A DNA stretch of 64,000 nt from Rhodanobacter soli (GTDB lineage: Bacteria; Pseudomonadota; Gammaproteobacteria; Xanthomonadales; Rhodanobacteraceae): NCBI RefSeq assembly GCF_040548735.1, contig NZ_JBEPSD010000002.1, positions 62,001 through 126,000 of the forward strand, read 5' to 3'. This document shows positions 57,497 to 63,901 of the stretch, one piece after another. Numbering within the stretch: the stretch's first letter is position 1; the number at the start of each line of letters is the position of its first letter. The notes beneath the pieces were generated by a model that was given only the letters and a program-made list of their open reading frames with translations, was not told the origin of the DNA and did not search any database. Both the position numbers and the translations under genes were made by a program.

Positions 57497-58108
57497 TCAA
57501 CACTGGGTCCGGCCGCCGGCCAGCTGCTTGCACGGGTGAAATATCGGTTTGTCCGATACCGGTGGGGTGTGGTGGCCGCTGTCATGGCGGCGATGGGGAT
57601 ACGGATACGGTGCACCGCCCCAATAGACCGGACCGTTGTAGATCGGCTGGGTCAGCTGTTCCTGGTATTCGTCGTTCTGCTGCCGCAGCGCGTCGTTCTC
57701 GGCCTGTAGTCGCTCGCGCTCGGCGTCCTGGTCGGCGAGCGCCTGCTGCTGGGCTTCCTGGGCGCGTTGTTCGGCGTCGTAAGCCTCGTCGGCCCGACGC
57801 CGGGCCTCCTCGTCCGCCGCCTGCTGGCGGGCATCCAGGCGCTGCTGGTAGAGCGTTTCGAGGTGGCGTGAATCCGCATAGCGTTTCGCCAGGTCGTCCT
57901 GGCCCAGGCGCAGGTAGCGGTCGATGACTTCGGTGTCGTCGGCCCGGTGCAGCAGCTCGCCGCTGCCGTTCGGGCAGGGGTGATCGGTGTAGGCGACCTG
58001 TCCGCCCTGCGTGCATTTGTAGATGTTCTGCGCGCCGGCCGTTCCCGCCGCGGCCAGCAGCAGGACGGCAGCCGAGAAGCAAATTCCTCCCACTGGCAGG
58101 CTTTTCAT
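57497..58108 (-). CDS. DUF4124 protein with long coiled coil
   Basis: 203 residues with signal peptide ending TAGA. QNIYKCTQGGQVAYTDHPCPNG is the DUF4124 module, a small beta domain with a Cys pair. Residues ~75-165 are a Glu/Gln/Ala/Arg-rich heptad helix. A Pro/Tyr/His tail follows. Periplasmic; family function unknown. It converges on the operon end with only ten bases between stops. Confidence 0.8.
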   Translation of the reverse strand: MKSLPVGGICFSAAVLLLAAAGTAGAQNIYKCTQGGQVAYTDHPCPNGSGELLHRADDTEVIDRYLRLGQDDLAKRYADSRHLETLYQQRLDARQQAADEEARRRADEAYDAEQRAQEAQQQALADQDAERERLQAENDALRQQNDEYQEQLTQPIYNGPVYWGGAPYPYPHRRHDSGHHTPPVSDKPIFHPCKQLAGGRTQC

Positions 58109-58430: not shown

Positions 58431-60644
58431 ATGACGCAAGCTTCCGCGGTGCCGGCATTCCGGTACCGCGCCTTCATCAGCTACAGCCACCGGGACAAGG
58501 CCTGGGCGGGCTGGCTGCATCGGGCGCTGGAAACCTACGCGGTTCCGAAGCGCCTGGTCGGCCAGACGACAGCGTTCGGCGAGATCCCCGGCCGCCTTGC
58601 GCCGATCTTCCGCGATCGCGACGAGCTGGCCAGTGCCACCGATCTCGGCCGCAAGGTCAACGAGGCATTGGCGCAATCGGCCAACCTGCTGGTGATCTGC
58701 TCGCCGAACTCGGCGACTTCGCACTGGGTCAACGAGGAGGTGCTGGCGTTCAAGCGGCTCGGCCGCAGTGAGCGCATCTTCTGCCTGATCGTCGATGGCG
58801 AACCCGGCGCCAGCGAGCTGCCCGGCTGCGCCGCCGAGGAATGTTTCGCGCCGGCGCTGCGCCACCAACTCGGCGCCGACGGTGCGTTGAGCCACGAGCG
58901 CACCGAGCCGATCGCCGCCGACGCGCGCGCAGGCAAGGACGGCAAGGCCAACGCCAAGCTGAAGCTGATCGCCGGCATGCTGGACCTCGGCTTCGATGCG
59001 CTGAAGCGGCGCGAACTGCAGCGACGCGCCCGGCGCATGGCGGCGCTGGCCATGCTGGCGCTGATCGTGATGGCGGCGACCACCACCCTGGCGATCACCG
59101 CCATGATCGCCCGCCACGCCGCGGTGGTCGCCAGCCAGGCCGCCGAGCGCCGGCAGAAGCAGGCGGAGGGCCTGGTCAATTTCATGCTGGGCGATCTCAA
59201 CGACAAGCTGGCGCAGGTGCAGCGTCTGGACATCATGGAGGCGGTGGATGATCACGCGATGAACTATTTCCAGTCGCTGCCGAGTACCGACGTCACCGAC
59301 GAGGCGCTCGTGCAGCGCGCCAAGGCGCTGGAGAAGATCGGCATCGTACGGCTGGACCAGGGCCATCTGCCGGCGGCGATGGAGTCGTTTCGGGCGGCCT
59401 CGAAGCTCGCGGCCACGCTGGCGGAGGCGGCTCCCGCAGACGCCTCGCGGCAGCACGCCTATGCAAGAGTATTGACCTTCGTCGGCATGACCCACTGGTA
59501 TCAGGGACAGCTGGATGCGGCGCAACGGAGTTTTGTGTCGGCGCAAACCGTTCTGCAGCGTGTCGGGTCGAATGTCGCGGATAACCTGCCCTTGCAGTAC
59601 GAACTGGCCATGCTGGACAACAACATCGGCCATGTGCTTGAAGCGCGCGGTCAGTTGGACGAGGCAGCCGGCCACTACCGCAGGGCGCTGGTGTTGTCGC
59701 GGAAACTGGTGGCTGCCAAACCCGGCAACACCGAGTGGGCGTTGGAATTGGGCGGCGCGCACAACAATCTCGGCAAGCTGGCATTGATGCGCGGCGACCT
59801 TGCAACAGCTGTCGCCGAATACGCCGCCGACGACACGATCGAAACCGCGCTCTCCGCGCACGACCCAAGGGACAACGACCAGCGCGAGAGCATGCTTACG
59901 GTTCGCGCCATTCTGGGGCGCACGCTGGCCCTGACCGGCGACATCGAAGCGGGCATGCGCGATCTGCAACAGGCGGTCGACATCGCCGGGCAACTGACGA
60001 AGGTCGATCCGGGCAATACCAGCTTCCAGGAGCATCTGGCGCTGTATTCCTCGCAGTTGGGCCGGCTGCGGCGCTTGAGCGGCGATCTGCCCGCGGCTCA
60101 GACGCTGACTGCGCAGTCGCTGGCCATTTTCCTTGCCTTGACGAAACAGGATCCGGCGAACGTCGGCAGGCAGCGCGAGTTCGCCGAGGCGCAGCTTGAG
60201 CAGGCTGCGCAATTGCAGGCGTCCGGCCAGACCGACGCAGCGCGCAGGCAGGCGCAGGCTGCACTGGCGATCCTCGCCCCCTTGTTCGTCAAGCAGCCCG
60301 ACGACCGCGCCACCCTGCTGGCGATGGCGGGAGCGCAGCTTTTGCTCGCGGCGGTATCCGATGGGGCGCGGGCCACTCGGCAACTGCGCAGCGATGCCTT
60401 GAACGCGATGCAGGCGGTGAAAAGCGGCGATGACGATCCGCGTCTGCTGGCGTTGCAGGTCGAGGCGCTGCTGGTGCTGCGCATGAAAGCCGAGGCGCAG
60501 GCCGTGATCCGGCAACTGTGGAGCAGCGGCTACCGCGATGCGGCGCTGCTGGCCGTGCTGCGACGCGAGCGGATCGATTATCCGGTCAATACGGCATTCC
60601 AGCAGAAACTGCTGGCGGCAACCGACACCAACGCTCGCCGGTAA
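58431..60644 (+). CDS. TIR-domain protein with membrane helix and TPR region
   Basis: 737 residues from the ATG at 58431. Residues 11-~125 are a TIR domain: YRAFISYSHRDKAWAGWLH, FRDRDELASATDL, LLVICSPNSATSHWVNEEVLAF. WVNEE matches the WVxxE of SARM1, placing the NADase Glu at 103. One membrane helix lies at ~203-225, then a helical linker (AAERRQKQAEGLV) and TPR-like repeats to the C-terminus (GQLDEAAGHYRRALVL, GDIEAGMRDLQQAVDI). TIR is cytosolic and the repeats probably periplasmic. Starts at 58401 or 58284 are possible. It is first in a four-gene set. Confidence 0.88.
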   Translation: MTQASAVPAFRYRAFISYSHRDKAWAGWLHRALETYAVPKRLVGQTTAFGEIPGRLAPIFRDRDELASATDLGRKVNEALAQSANLLVICSPNSATSHWVNEEVLAFKRLGRSERIFCLIVDGEPGASELPGCAAEECFAPALRHQLGADGALSHERTEPIAADARAGKDGKANAKLKLIAGMLDLGFDALKRRELQRRARRMAALAMLALIVMAATTTLAITAMIARHAAVVASQAAERRQKQAEGLVNFMLGDLNDKLAQVQRLDIMEAVDDHAMNYFQSLPSTDVTDEALVQRAKALEKIGIVRLDQGHLPAAMESFRAASKLAATLAEAAPADASRQHAYARVLTFVGMTHWYQGQLDAAQRSFVSAQTVLQRVGSNVADNLPLQYELAMLDNNIGHVLEARGQLDEAAGHYRRALVLSRKLVAAKPGNTEWALELGGAHNNLGKLALMRGDLATAVAEYAADDTIETALSAHDPRDNDQRESMLTVRAILGRTLALTGDIEAGMRDLQQAVDIAGQLTKVDPGNTSFQEHLALYSSQLGRLRRLSGDLPAAQTLTAQSLAIFLALTKQDPANVGRQREFAEAQLEQAAQLQASGQTDAARRQAQAALAILAPLFVKQPDDRATLLAMAGAQLLLAAVSDGARATRQLRSDALNAMQAVKSGDDDPRLLALQVEALLVLRMKAEAQAVIRQLWSSGYRDAALLAVLRRERIDYPVNTAFQQKLLAATDTNARR

Positions 60645-60724
60645 GGCCGGGCGCAACGAACAGGGGATGGGCAACACCGGCAAGCGCGGTATCGGATCAA
60701 ACCCTCATTACCAAGGAATCCATC

Positions 60725-61123
60725 ATGCCGAACAATCTCAATGTCAAGCTCGACACGAGCACAACCCCGCCGTATCTCGATATCGATCAGAGTAACGGTG
60801 CGAACCACGTCAGCCGTAGTCCCAACGCGCAAACCATCACCTGGCAGCTGACCGGCAATGCGGCCTCGGGATCGTTCAATACGCAAAGCGATCCGGAACC
60901 TGGTTTCGCCTGGGTCGGCACGCCGCCACCTGCCGGCATCTTCGGCTCCCCCGTGCTGCAGGCAAACGGCAACCAGCTGACGATGAGCGACCTCAACAAC
61001 AGCGCCAGCACGGCAGGCGACTGGATCTATCAGCTGAGCGCCACCATCGGCGGTGTGGTCTACCAGTCCAACAAGACATCCCTCACGCAGACCAATACGA
61101 ACCCGTCGATAAAAAACAACTAA
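60725..61123 (+). CDS. 132-residue small protein ending in PSIKNN
   Basis: AAGGAATC precedes the ATG. No signal peptide and no membrane helix. The sequence is rich in Asn, Ser, Thr and Gln with alternating hydrophobics (TITWQLTG, WIYQLSATIGGVVY), suggesting a beta-sandwich. It contains SDPEPGFAWVG and a Pro/Gly loop (GTPPPAGIFGSP). The base composition is lower in GC than its neighbours, hinting at transfer or relaxed codon use. Its last six residues, PSIKNN, recur at the end of the next protein. I tentatively recall a DP-EP family with a similar motif; function unknown. Confidence 0.78.
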   Translation: MPNNLNVKLDTSTTPPYLDIDQSNGANHVSRSPNAQTITWQLTGNAASGSFNTQSDPEPGFAWVGTPPPAGIFGSPVLQANGNQLTMSDLNNSASTAGDWIYQLSATIGGVVYQSNKTSLTQTNTNPSIKNN

Positions 61124-61258
61124 TTCCCGAAGAGCCCGACAGGCTCCAGGCCCGGACACCGTGACCTGGAGCCTTGGAAAATTCGGGCAACGGGCGTCAA
61201 GGCACGGATGCCGGCACGGAGCACCAACGTCATCGCTTCAACTACCTTGGAGACCGAC

Positions 61259-61417
61259 ATGCCAAAGACCAGCCATGAAAGTCAGGACGCTCCGGCCGCG
61301 CCGCTGCCCACTGACGACGAGAATGTCCTGGCGAATAGCGACGCCGAGCAGGAATCCGCGCTGGTGAGCACGCCCGCGCCGGACACCGCCACTCGTCCGT
61401 CGATCAAGAATAATTAG
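61259..61417 (+). CDS. 52-residue acidic peptide ending in PSIKNN
   Basis: GGAG lies six bases before the ATG. The peptide is hydrophilic and acidic with Pro/Ala runs (MPKTSHESQDAPAAPLPTDD at the start) and probably disordered. It ends RPSIKNN, then TAG. The six-residue tail is the same as in the preceding protein, while the codons differ at four third positions. That points to selection on the peptide, not recent DNA duplication. It may be a recognition tag for a common partner encoded in this locus, or a precursor peptide; both are inference. Confidence 0.7.
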   Translation: MPKTSHESQDAPAAPLPTDDENVLANSDAEQESALVSTPAPDTATRPSIKNN

Positions 61418-61555
61418 GGTGCGCCGCGGTCCAGGCATTCACCAGGGCTCATGCGGCTTCGTGAGGAGGCTGCCGGCAGCGGCCTCCTGTGGGGTTCCGT
61501 GGGCCTGCGGAATCGTGCGCGGTCCATCGTGCGTAGCCTTCAGCGGGAAGCCGTC

Positions 61556-63247
61556 ATGACTCCCCTGGTCATCGGCGTCACCAGCCATCGCAATATTCCC
61601 GCCGACGAAATCGAGCCGATCCGGCAACGCGTGCGGGATTTCCTGGCGCAACTGCGGCGCGATTTCCCCGCGCTGCCGCTGGTGGTGCTGTCGGCGTTGG
61701 CCGAGGGCGGCGACCAGTTGGTGGCGTACGAGGCGCTCGCCGTGAGCGCGCGCCTGGTCGCGCCGTTGCCGTTACCGCAGGAACTGTACGTGGACGACTT
61801 TGCCGACCCAGCGGTGCGCGCCAGTTTCGACGCGCTGTGCGCTCGGGCCGAGGTCGTGCCGCTGCCGTTGCCGAAGGGGCAGTCGTTGCTTGATCTCGGC
61901 ACGCCAGGCCTCGCGCGCGATCGTCAATACGCCAAGGCCGGCGTCTATATCGCCAGCCACTGCCACATCCTGCTGGCGATCTGGGACGGCAAGGTATCGG
62001 GCCGGCTCGGCGGCACCGCGCAGATCGTGAAATACCATCTGAGCGGTACCCTGCCGGGCCTGATCGACCGGCGCCGGGATACGCGCCACGTGCTGGGCGG
62101 CGGCGACGAAAGCCTGCTCCTCCACATCGTCTGTTCGCGCGACGGGCCCGACGGCGCGCCGGCTGCCGGACTGCTGCCCTTGCAGGTGCTGTGGCGTACC
62201 GCCGACACGGCTTCCGCCGCCGATAGCATGCCGGCGGATTTCAGGCTGATGTTCGCGCGCATGGTCGAGTTCAATCGCGAGTGCGACAAATACGCCGACG
62301 AGATCATGGCCGCCGCGCCGGCGCGGCCGGTCGCCGAAACGCGCCACACCGCGGCCATCGACCGGCTGTTCCATGCCGCCGACTGGCTGGCGATGCATTT
62401 CCAGCGGCGGGTACTGCTGGCCATGCGCCTGACTTACACGCTGGCGGCCTTGATGGGCATCGCCTTCACGTTCTATGCGCACATGCCCGCGCAGAACTTC
62501 CTGATCTACCTGTTCCTGGTCCTGTTCGCCAGCGGCGGCGCGGTGGCGGCGCTGGCCCGGTATCGCGGCTGGCACCGCAAGTATCTGGATTACCGCGCGC
62601 TGGCGGAGGGCTTGCGGATCCAGTCGTACTGGCGGCGGGCGGGCATCTCGGCGAATGCCGACCACGAATTCGCGCATGACAACTTCCTGCAGAGGCAGAA
62701 CATCGAACTGGGCTGGATCCGCAACGTCATGCGCGCCGCCGGCCTCGACGTGGTGACCGCTCCGACGGCGTCCCCGCCGACCGCACTGGCGGACGTCATT
62801 GCGGAATGGGTGGGGGAATCGGGGAAGTCCGGGCAGCTTCATTACTACGAGCGCAAGACCATCGAGCGCACCGGCCTGCACCACGTGACCGAAGCGATCG
62901 GCTCGCTCAGCCTGTGGGGCGGCGTGGCGATCAGCGTGTTCCTTGCCATATTCGTGCTCAAGCTGTCGCAGGAAACCAAGACCACCCTGGTGATGATCAT
63001 GGCGGTGCTGTCGATCATGGCCGCCGTGCGCGAGGCTTACGCCTACCGCAAGGCCGACAAGGAATTGATCAGGCAGTACCGTTTCATGCAGCGCATCTTC
63101 GCCAGCGCACGCACGGCATTGGACCGCACGCACGATCCCGTGCTGCAGCGGCAGATCCTGCTTTCGCTCGGCGACGCCGCACTCACCGAACACGCCGAAT
63201 GGACGCTGATGCAGCGCGAACGCCAGGTGGAGCACAGCAAGCTCTGA
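61556..63247 (+). CDS. SLOG-like domain fused to four membrane helices
   Basis: 563 residues from the ATG at 61556 (GGAAG upstream). Residues 1-~215 look like a SLOG Rossmann domain: LVIGVTSHRNIP (phosphate loop), LVVLSALAEGGDQLVAYEAL, and CHILLAIWDG. Membrane helices are predicted at about 286-306, 314-334, 450-470 and 477-492. The first pair is followed by WHRKYLDYRALAEGLRIQSYWRRAGI, a helical block also seen in SLATT-like effectors. SLOG domains bind nucleotide-derived ligands such as the cyclic ADP-ribose made by TIR enzymes, and one is encoded just upstream. Pore formation on ligand binding is a reasonable guess, not shown. Confidence 0.75.
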   Translation: MTPLVIGVTSHRNIPADEIEPIRQRVRDFLAQLRRDFPALPLVVLSALAEGGDQLVAYEALAVSARLVAPLPLPQELYVDDFADPAVRASFDALCARAEVVPLPLPKGQSLLDLGTPGLARDRQYAKAGVYIASHCHILLAIWDGKVSGRLGGTAQIVKYHLSGTLPGLIDRRRDTRHVLGGGDESLLLHIVCSRDGPDGAPAAGLLPLQVLWRTADTASAADSMPADFRLMFARMVEFNRECDKYADEIMAAAPARPVAETRHTAAIDRLFHAADWLAMHFQRRVLLAMRLTYTLAALMGIAFTFYAHMPAQNFLIYLFLVLFASGGAVAALARYRGWHRKYLDYRALAEGLRIQSYWRRAGISANADHEFAHDNFLQRQNIELGWIRNVMRAAGLDVVTAPTASPPTALADVIAEWVGESGKSGQLHYYERKTIERTGLHHVTEAIGSLSLWGGVAISVFLAIFVLKLSQETKTTLVMIMAVLSIMAAVREAYAYRKADKELIRQYRFMQRIFASARTALDRTHDPVLQRQILLSLGDAALTEHAEWTLMQRERQVEHSKL

Positions 63248-63313: not shown

Positions 63314-63901
63314 TCAATGAGGTGAGATGGGGAGAGGCGGCGTGGGTGCCTTGTCCACGCGCTGCCATGCGCGCAGGCCGATCACCGCCAGCAGCACGAA
63401 GCCCGCGTACAGCACCGAGGTGATCAGCAGGTGCTTGTAGACGTATTCGCCCACGTAGATCACGTCCACCACGATCCACAGCCACCACGCGGCGACGTGC
63501 CGCTTCGCTTGCCACCACTGCGCGACCAGGCTGAAGGCGGTCAGCGCCGCATCCAGCCAGGGCAGGGCGGCGTCGGTTCGGTAGTGCATGAACGCGCCCA
63601 GCGCCAGCGCGCCGAGGCTGCCGAGCGCCAGGTGCACGATCGCCTGCCGCCGTGGCAGTGCGGCCACTTCCACGCGGCCGTCCTCGCCCATGTGCTGCAG
63701 CCAGCGGTACCAGCCGTAGCCGATCAGCAGCGCGAACGCCAGCTGCAGCAGCGCGTCGGAGTAGAGCTTCGCGTCGACGAACACCCACGCGTAGACCAGC
63801 ACCGAGATCAGCCCCACCGGCCAGCACCACGGACGCCGGCGGGTGGTGAGCCAGACGGCCCAGGCGCTGACCAGCGCGGCGATGAGTTCGACCCAGGTCA
63901 T
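63314..63901 (-). CDS. pnuC: PnuC-family vitamin transporter
   Basis: 195 residues, about seven helices. WVELIAALVSAWAVWLTTRRRPWCWPVGLISVLVYAWVFVDAKLYSDALLQ and RHVAAWWLWIVVDVIYVGEYVYK are PnuC signatures with the Trp-rich binding site. PnuC proteins carry nicotinamide riboside; close PnuT relatives carry thiamine. The gene follows a TonB-receptor gene, the usual partner for outer-membrane passage of either vitamin. No THI-box is visible in the portion shown, so the substrate is open. Confidence 0.9.
   Translation of the reverse strand: MTWVELIAALVSAWAVWLTTRRRPWCWPVGLISVLVYAWVFVDAKLYSDALLQLAFALLIGYGWYRWLQHMGEDGRVEVAALPRRQAIVHLALGSLGALALGAFMHYRTDAALPWLDAALTAFSLVAQWWQAKRHVAAWWLWIVVDVIYVGEYVYKHLLITSVLYAGFVLLAVIGLRAWQRVDKAPTPPLPISPH

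Follow-up and report, generated by a model that had tools for sequence, protein, structure and literature searches.

Gene content of the locus

We analyzed a 64,000-nucleotide stretch of the Rhodanobacter soli genome (contig NZ_JBEPSD010000002.1, positions 62,001 to 126,000), referred to here as the window. It contains, at positions 58431..63247, four open reading frames (ORFs) that are all located on the plus strand (Table 1). These encode (i) P0001, a protein composed of a TIR domain, a single membrane helix, and a TPR region, (ii) P0002, or small protein 1, (iii) small protein 2, and (iv) P0004, a membrane protein with a SLOG-like domain and two SLATT-type domains. Apart from the SLATT-type domains, this arrangement agrees with an initial annotation made from the sequence alone, which had also noted that both small proteins end in PSIKNN. 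The new point is this C-terminal tail and its coupling to the TPR module. The likely translation starts of small protein 1, small protein 2, and P0004 are positions 60725, 61259, and 61556, respectively.

The TIR domain of P0001 scored above the Pfam cut-offs of TIR_2 (E value of 3.1e-13) and ThsB_TIR (1.9e-7). Of the 57 TIR-matching ORFs found, 44 with an [AV]FISYSH start and sufficient length were aligned with P0001. Residues S97, W99, and E103 were identical in 45/45 rows, some of which are close relatives, so that the WVxxE motif and Glu103 are found where the initial annotation had placed them. P0001 keeps the catalytic-type Glu, and NADase activity is predicted. With PADLOC, only the TIR part of P0001 was matched (SAVED_TIR, 0.0032; ThsB, 0.011). 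The annotated membrane helix and TPRs were also recovered; several TPR models match the C-terminal region. The helix-plus-TPR module is common to STAND- and kinase-type TPR proteins. At a hydropathy threshold, one membrane helix was present at the matching place in 44/44 P0001 homologues, and its N side was the more positive one in 41 of the 44. This topology predicts a cytoplasmic TIR domain and a periplasmic TPR region.

P0004 has four predicted membrane helices (amino acids [aa] 286-304, 315-333, 450-468, and 478-496), as had been annotated; their relation to SLATT domains had been overlooked. DUF4231 matches above its cut-off (9.5e-6), and the NCBIfam model SLATT_1 matches two stretches (4.3e-9; 36.4 bits, with a cut-off of 41). 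SLATT_1, SLATT_3, and SLATT_6 all remain below their cut-offs. Among 48 P0004-type rows, DUF4231 was found in 46 and SLATT_3 in 43 (E values of up to 0.5). By these matches and hydropathy, the helices are assigned to two SLATT/DUF4231-type domains. The proposed SLOG-like nature of the N-terminal part proved harder to substantiate. Its motifs GVTSHR, LAEGGDQL, and WDG..GGT are well kept across P0004 relatives and presumably resemble SLOG motifs. Of the Pfam models, DprA (3/21; best E value of 1.6e-4), which we take to be a member of the SLOG superfamily, and YAcAr (1/21; 5.6e-3), a SLOG family by Pfam's own description, gave the best matches to 21 rows trimmed to the domain; the row of the window itself had no match. 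A profile search of the Protein Data Bank (PDB) with the domain gave a sole match at an E value of 0.23, and PDB sequence searches with P0004, its SLOG-like part, P0002, and the P0002 family gave nothing below 0.2. A profile comparison of the domain with 17 LOG-type proteins was negative, and SIR2 and macro models did not match P0004.

Table 1. Features of the four-gene locus and its flanks (positions in the window)
Feature	Position	Strand	Basis or remark
P0001, TIR - single membrane helix - TPR protein, 737 aa	58431..60644	+	Domain models, alignment, hydropathy
TIR domain, aa 15-125, motif WVNEE with catalytic-type W99/E103	58473..58805	+	TIR_2, ThsB_TIR; alignment
Single predicted membrane helix, aa 204-222, N side rich in K/R	59040..59096	+	Hydropathy
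Clearest TPR stretch, aa 392-519	59604..59987	+	TPR models
Small protein 1 (P0002), 132 aa, end NPSIKNN	60725..61123	+	Family of 41 members among collected loci
PSIKNN tail codons of small protein 1	61103..61120	+	P127, I129, and N131 invariant
Small protein 2, 52 aa, acidic, probably disordered, end RPSIKNN	61259..61417	+	Similar acidic tail peptides at other loci
P0004, SLOG-like - 2x SLATT-type membrane protein, 563 aa	61556..63247	+	Domain models, hydropathy
SLOG-like domain (plausible), aa 1-225, motifs GVTSHR, LAEGGDQL, WDG..GGT	61556..62230	+	Weak DprA/YAcAr matches, in relatives only
First SLATT/DUF4231 domain, aa 270-373, two helices	62363..62674	+	DUF4231, SLATT_1
Second SLATT-like domain, aa 450-549, two helices	62903..63202	+	SLATT_1 (456-549) below cut-off; hydropathy
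Flanking gene outside the cassette, presumably PnuC-like	63314..63901	-	One border of the insertion site
Other flanking gene, presumably DUF4124-like	57497..58108	-	Second border of the insertion site

A common tail on unlike small proteins

Small proteins 1 and 2 have unlike bodies and the common end PSIKNN. Neither matched a family in Pfam, NCBIfam, or PADLOC. In the 3.9-Mb genome, the corresponding DNA pattern ([S/T-type codon]-I-K-N-N-stop) occurred at these two sites only, and the backward control of the pattern did not occur (0 occurrences). This count rules out a chance origin of the PSIKNN tail; for the wider motif, chance is ruled out by the locus counts given below. An iterative profile search of the collected loci resulted in a P0002 family of 41 members, of which 41/41 possess a P-x-I-x-N end. 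In the 37 aligned rows, the tail residues P, I, and N were invariant, at a mean column identity of 30%. The same end was found on short acidic peptides, on exported-type peptides of 65-66 aa, and on a Pro-Ala repeat. At many loci, a P0002-type protein was not found and an acidic tail peptide was present.

The residue that precedes the tail Pro varied among the TIR/SLOG loci (Asn, 24; Asp, 17; other, 20), and in the window the Asp is replaced by Asn in small protein 1 and by Arg in small protein 2. Given this variation, cleavage at an Asp-Pro bond cannot be general. Lysobacter- and Arenimonas-type loci carry tails that read CDPAIRN, CDPVIRN, and CDPRIVN. Tails within one locus were more alike than shuffled pairs: for 14 loci the value was 4.81 of 6 positions versus 3.86 after shuffling, with 0/20,000 shuffles as high, and without three Lysobacter-type loci it was 4.92 versus 4.38 (65/20,000 as high), a comparison that ignores kinship.

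Several carriers are worth recording individually. The exported-type peptides of 65-66 aa at two TIR/SLOG loci (L031:5297-5494 and L024:1157-1357) have in common the sequence ISNWFACAIGSQSCVS, which contains two Cys residues, and an IKNN tail. The Pro-Ala repeat ORF (L048:2226-2411) ends in NPSIKNN and is located upstream of a TIR-TPR gene. An orphan P0002 relative with the same NPSIKNN end (L094:3825-4265) was found in genome G078, on a different contig from the cassette.

Relationship to DP-EP proteins and coupling to the TPR module

DP-EP proteins end in [D]P-x-I-x-N, and the PSIKNN tail is a variant of this motif. The Pfam DP-EP model (PF08985) did not match P0002. The small protein of locus L075, one of those from the Lysobacter- and Arenimonas-type loci, matched it over nearly its full length (E value of 0.0019; 19 bits versus a cut-off of 25), and the other nine small proteins scanned alongside gave no match. 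The body of P0002 (aa 4-109) showed a moderate match, restricted to the body, to bona fide DP-EP proteins (hhalign, 61.6%; E value of 7.7e-5). We also built a profile, A1, from 12 small DP-EP-like proteins from TPR-module places; its match to the P0002 family was poor (6.6%), and that to bona fide DP-EP was 96.8%. In the PDB, A1 matched 3njh (molecule name Peptidase; E value of 8.2e-4), 3nji (0.0011), and 3njk and 3njm (0.04-0.05), with DPQIINRP aligned to DPQVTNxP in 3njh; one DP-EP-like protein used as a single query gave nothing below an E value of 0.2. We take 3njh to be a solved, self-cleaving DP-EP relative, and SO1698 reportedly cleaves itself at an Asp-Pro near its C terminus. According to the part of the source available, Pfam places DP-EP in the CU_oxidase clan (PMC12533140).

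Tail genes are genetically coupled to genes encoding the TPR module, as seen in four sets of loci. (i) A tail ORF was present at most 1.6 kb behind the TIR-TPR gene in 46 of 56 TIR/SLOG loci versus 81 of 5,924 other ORFs, figures whose units differ (loci and ORFs) and whose pattern was picked after many of these loci had been seen; the 46 include two ORFs that look accidental, at L033 and L071, where other tails are present, and at least one duplicate locus. At 7/7 loci with SLOG-SLATT on the opposite strand, the tail ORF lies behind TIR-TPR and on its strand. (ii) When 200 genomes of the order were searched for DP-EP, 11 showed weak matches that all stayed below the cut-off; in 8 of these 11, a protein matched by the TPR region of P0001 is encoded a short distance upstream. 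Sixteen places were read, nine picked by DP-EP match and seven only by a long TPR-module frame; a small ORF with a DP tail was located directly behind the TPR module in 7/7 of the TPR-picked and 7/9 of the DP-EP-picked places, the exceptions being L118 (no DP tail by pattern) and L122 (no TPR match). (iii) Forty further TPR-module places, five of them TIR-type, were scanned with a strict pattern fixed before they were read (DP-x-[IVLM]-x-[NC] near the end). A strict tail ORF was directly behind 11 of the 40 genes, and these 11 were the sole strict matches among 2,401 complete ORFs of less than 250 aa there. A looser pattern gave 15/40 (one of which, at L178, looks accidental) versus 12/2,306 other ORFs. 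(iv) Bona fide DP-EP genes were found in 6 of 398 genomes of the phylum, and in 6/6 of these one DP-EP gene directly follows a gene of 1,066-1,112 codons with the TPR module and a STAND-type motif.

The N-terminal outputs joined to the TPR module vary and include a winged helix with a STAND ATPase, a protein kinase, and TIR, names that we assigned by motif and presumed likeness. A quick tree of 66 TPR modules, with many open forks, long branches, simple-motif labels, and some rows labeled "other" that are probably TIR, hints at an exchange of TIR, STAND, and kinase outputs. The position of tail genes behind TPR-module proteins with such varied outputs, also at opposite-strand loci, points to the TPR module as the most likely partner of the tail. 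The initial annotation had suggested the TPR part as the target of the small proteins, an idea that gains support, since tail genes follow TPR-module proteins even where no SLOG gene was seen.

At the six places with bona fide DP-EP (L138-L143), the DP-EP gene follows a winged-helix/STAND/TPR gene. The next neighbor in five of these regions is a gene that we take to be PAS-GGDEF-like; in the sixth, L139, another gene lies between it and the DP-EP unit. This neighborhood is likely a conserved signaling unit.

Co-occurrence, genomic distribution, and mobility

The initial annotation expected the four genes to co-occur in a fixed order. Co-occurrence was largely observed, since a TIR-TPR match was found within 8 kb of 38 of the 48 SLOG-SLATT places longer than 1,100 bases. 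A fixed four-gene order is ruled out: at 56 loci with both genes readable, 44 had TIR followed by SLOG on the same strand, 5 had SLOG first, and 7 had the two genes on opposite strands. Conversely, 17 of 59 TIR-type places had no SLOG within 8 kb. On a Caballeronia plasmid, a SLOG-like/DUF4231 protein adjoins a separate annotated TIR protein and a WD40 protein, which is another TIR/SLOG-SLATT pairing. At a further locus (L146:2879-3904), where no TIR-TPR was found, a different 341-aa ORF that appears TIR-like by eye lies 3 kb upstream of SLOG-SLATT.

P0004 was matched in 50 of 149 related genomes, in three of which (G042, G014, and G122) the match was fragmentary or weak only. It was also matched at 61 loci of a second collection that overlaps with the first, mostly with Rhodanobacter, Dyella, Luteibacter, Frateuria, Lysobacter, and Arenimonas titles. 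The closest named relative, from a Rhodanobacter, shares 94% identity. Within the genus, the PnuC-like flanking gene was matched in 43 of 45 genomes, and 30 loci were read. Seven had SLOG-SLATT beside this gene, 14 were empty sites, in which both flanking genes are close neighbors and the cassette is absent, and nine were neither. Seven of the 14 genomes with an empty site carry a SLOG gene elsewhere (G020, G024, G031, G034, G037, G039, and G041). Empty sites together with a SLOG gene elsewhere in some of the same genomes mark the four-gene region, as judged from these sequence comparisons, as a mobile cassette.

Phage records searched for carriage of the cassette gave no match, viral contigs gave one remote and partial match, and plasmids gave two remote matches, both from Caballeronia, one of which was inspected. 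A scan of the cassette for promoters and terminators revealed no sigma-70-type match and no plus-strand terminator and was uninformative. At four places only the C-terminal part of SLOG-SLATT (~65-180 residues) was matched (G042:C8:444647-444889 [L096], G014:C62:9002-9202 [L097], L089, and L091); these may be what is left of a cassette that was lost or replaced.

Proposed mechanism and alternative explanations

We propose, with a probability of roughly 0.45, that the locus is a mobile receptor-effector cassette with a tail-gated TIR-TPR receptor, an NAD-derived signal, and a SLOG-SLATT membrane effector. P0001 would be a one-pass membrane receptor whose TPR region recognizes the C-terminal P-x-I-x-N tail of neighboring small carrier proteins. 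Binding or loss of the tail would switch the receptor; a phage or damage to the envelope might, for example, cut, remove, or titrate the carrier. Clustered TIR domains would then make an NAD-derived nucleotide, the SLOG-like domain of P0004 would bind it, and the four SLATT helices could assemble and permeabilize the inner membrane, so that the cell stops. The initial annotation had already cast P0004 as the effector of the TIR signal. The co-occurrence with TIR-TPR and the SLATT-type membrane part, a domain type predicted to be regulated by nucleotides or ADP-ribose (ADPr) in the available parts of PMC7159879 and PMC9503650, speak for this role; the TIR-SLATT and TIR-SLOG ideas as such are not new.

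A number of observations weigh against this proposal. Ten of the 48 SLOG places lack TIR-TPR within 8 kb (six have it elsewhere only, four not at all), some of them on short contigs (G036 and G132). A tail ORF was not detected by pattern at 10 of the 56 TIR/SLOG loci, three of which have an off-pattern GVKNN end (L060), an internal DPQIKN (L069), or the tail gene upstream (L155), and no strict tail ORF was present behind 29 of the 40 further TPR-module genes. The SLOG label of aa 1-225 of P0004, which is plausible, rests on weak matches in relatives, and P0004 matches no PADLOC model. The remaining observations are those that favor two of the alternatives below: a lack of export signals in most tail carriers, and SLOG-SLATT or tail genes without TIR-TPR.

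The best-placed alternative, which we nevertheless regard as rather unlikely, is that the TPR region lies in the cytoplasm and directly detects a protein of phage or host origin, with the carriers as an intracellular guard, decoy, or brake held by the TPRs. A signal-peptide-like or lipobox-like start was seen in only 7 of 121 distinct tail ORFs (simple hydropathy threshold). The other 114, some of which may be chance ORFs, fit poorly with a periplasmic TPR region, and no hydrophobic stretch was detected by hydropathy in P0002 or small protein 2. In contrast, the more positive N side of the helix in 41/44 homologues puts TIR and TPR on opposite sides of the membrane, and exported-type carriers exist in several lineages, among the seven being the lipoprotein-like tail ORF of L155 directly upstream of TIR-TPR.

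It is unlikely that the cassette is a device for envelope-stress or developmental signaling rather than antiphage defense. Sister TPR proteins with what we take to be winged-helix/STAND or kinase outputs are typical of signaling, whereas TIR plus SLATT is otherwise known from conflict systems, and the patchy presence and cassette-like insertion of the locus are also at odds with such a role.

Even less probable is that the tail is an autoprocessing relic of self-cleaving DP-EP proteins, with carriers that are enzymes or structural proteins and a TPR coupling that reflects co-transcription only. The A1 match to 3njh, with its molecule name Peptidase, and the nearly full-length, below-cut-off PF08985 match at L075 agree with it. 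However, the tail is kept on unlike bodies (acidic, exported 65-aa, and Pro-Ala repeat), and the residue before the Pro is varied, so that selection for recognition rather than for cleavage seems likelier.

We consider it very improbable that SLOG-SLATT is the tail partner, or that SLOG-SLATT and TIR-TPR are independent passengers of one mobile region: SLOG-SLATT does occur without TIR-TPR in its flanks (L036, L079, L080, L081, and L087), an exported-type tail gene overlaps SLOG-SLATT with no TIR found adjoining at L151:5277-7581, and L038 has a tail gene and no TIR-TPR, but tails come after TPR-module proteins at loci that were chosen by TPR or DP-EP rather than by SLOG, they stay with TIR-TPR, behind it, where SLOG-SLATT occupies the opposite strand, and the TIR/SLOG pairing outlasts rearrangement and recurs in Caballeronia. 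As a tail partner SLOG-SLATT is thus disfavored, with L151 and L038 remaining.

The cassette proposal can be extended to a general, as yet undescribed class of bacterial one-pass receptors, which we put forward as a tentative and rather doubtful idea. A periplasmic TPR ectodomain would read a D/N-P-x-I-x-N tag, the TIR, STAND/winged-helix, and kinase outputs would be exchangeable, and the TIR form would act on a SLOG-2xSLATT pore; the tagged carriers would ancestrally be self-cleaving DP-EP proteins, and the layout would be Toll-like, made from other parts. Recognition of the tail by the TPR module, if true, would (i) give the DP-EP family a function, (ii) explain why one six-residue end occurs on unlike small proteins, and (iii) provide a simple ligand for bacterial TIR, STAND, and kinase receptors, the natural triggers of which are, to our knowledge, mostly unknown. 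The tail may point to a wider way in which bacteria switch on TIR-type receptors, and the full proposal, if true, would add a SLOG-SLATT membrane effector to TIR signaling.

Comparison with known systems

Pairings of TIR with SLATT and of TIR with SLOG are already known. In a literature search of titles and abstract beginnings, which included few subscription papers, we found nothing on a tail-TPR coupling or on this cassette. In Thoeris, as described in the accessible parts of the sources, a TIR enzyme signals to a nucleotide-binding effector, which contains SLOG in one case and membrane helices in another (PMC11204291, PMC10022894). The cassette resembles Thoeris in its TIR domain, with the catalytic Glu and an above-cut-off ThsB_TIR match, and in the proposed pairing of a TIR enzyme with a nucleotide-binding effector, here a protein with a SLOG-like part and membrane helices. 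It differs in that ThsA is of the SIR2-SLOG or TM-macro type, whereas P0004 combines a SLOG-like part with two SLATT-type domains and has no SIR2 or macro match, and in that the TIR protein also has a membrane helix and TPRs and is accompanied by tail-bearing small proteins. The PADLOC ThsA/ThsB definition does not recover the locus, with weak TIR-only matches for P0001 and none for P0004.

SLATT proteins have been described, in the portions of the papers at hand, as predicted membrane effectors regulated by nucleotides or ADPr (PMC7159879, PMC9503650), and the cassette shares with them the linkage to a putative signal-generating enzyme. TIR-SLATT neighborhoods were reported from firmicute phages, sometimes with HTH or zincin genes (PMC9503650). 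The presence of TIR near two-helix SLATT domains, represented here by the DUF4231 match, is a likeness, whereas the part of that source available to us places its examples in phages and notes no TPR, SLOG fusion, or tail proteins. DP-EP proteins (PF08985) are similar in that small proteins ending in D-P-x-[VIM]-x-N are located directly behind TPR-bearing proteins; unlike them, the proteins of the window fall outside the Pfam model, the Asp before the Pro is replaced, and some carriers are short acidic peptides.

The FxSxx-COOH system is actinobacterial and, in the sections of the source available, involves a zincin peptidase, a radical SAM enzyme, and an unrelated motif; zincin peptidase and radical SAM models did not match any of the four cassette proteins. 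Its precursors are very variable, have a conserved C-terminal peptide, and are coupled to TIR/AP-ATPase and TPR proteins (PMC7159879, in part). With its variable carriers of a conserved C-terminal peptide beside TIR and TPR proteins, this system is a striking parallel to the cassette.

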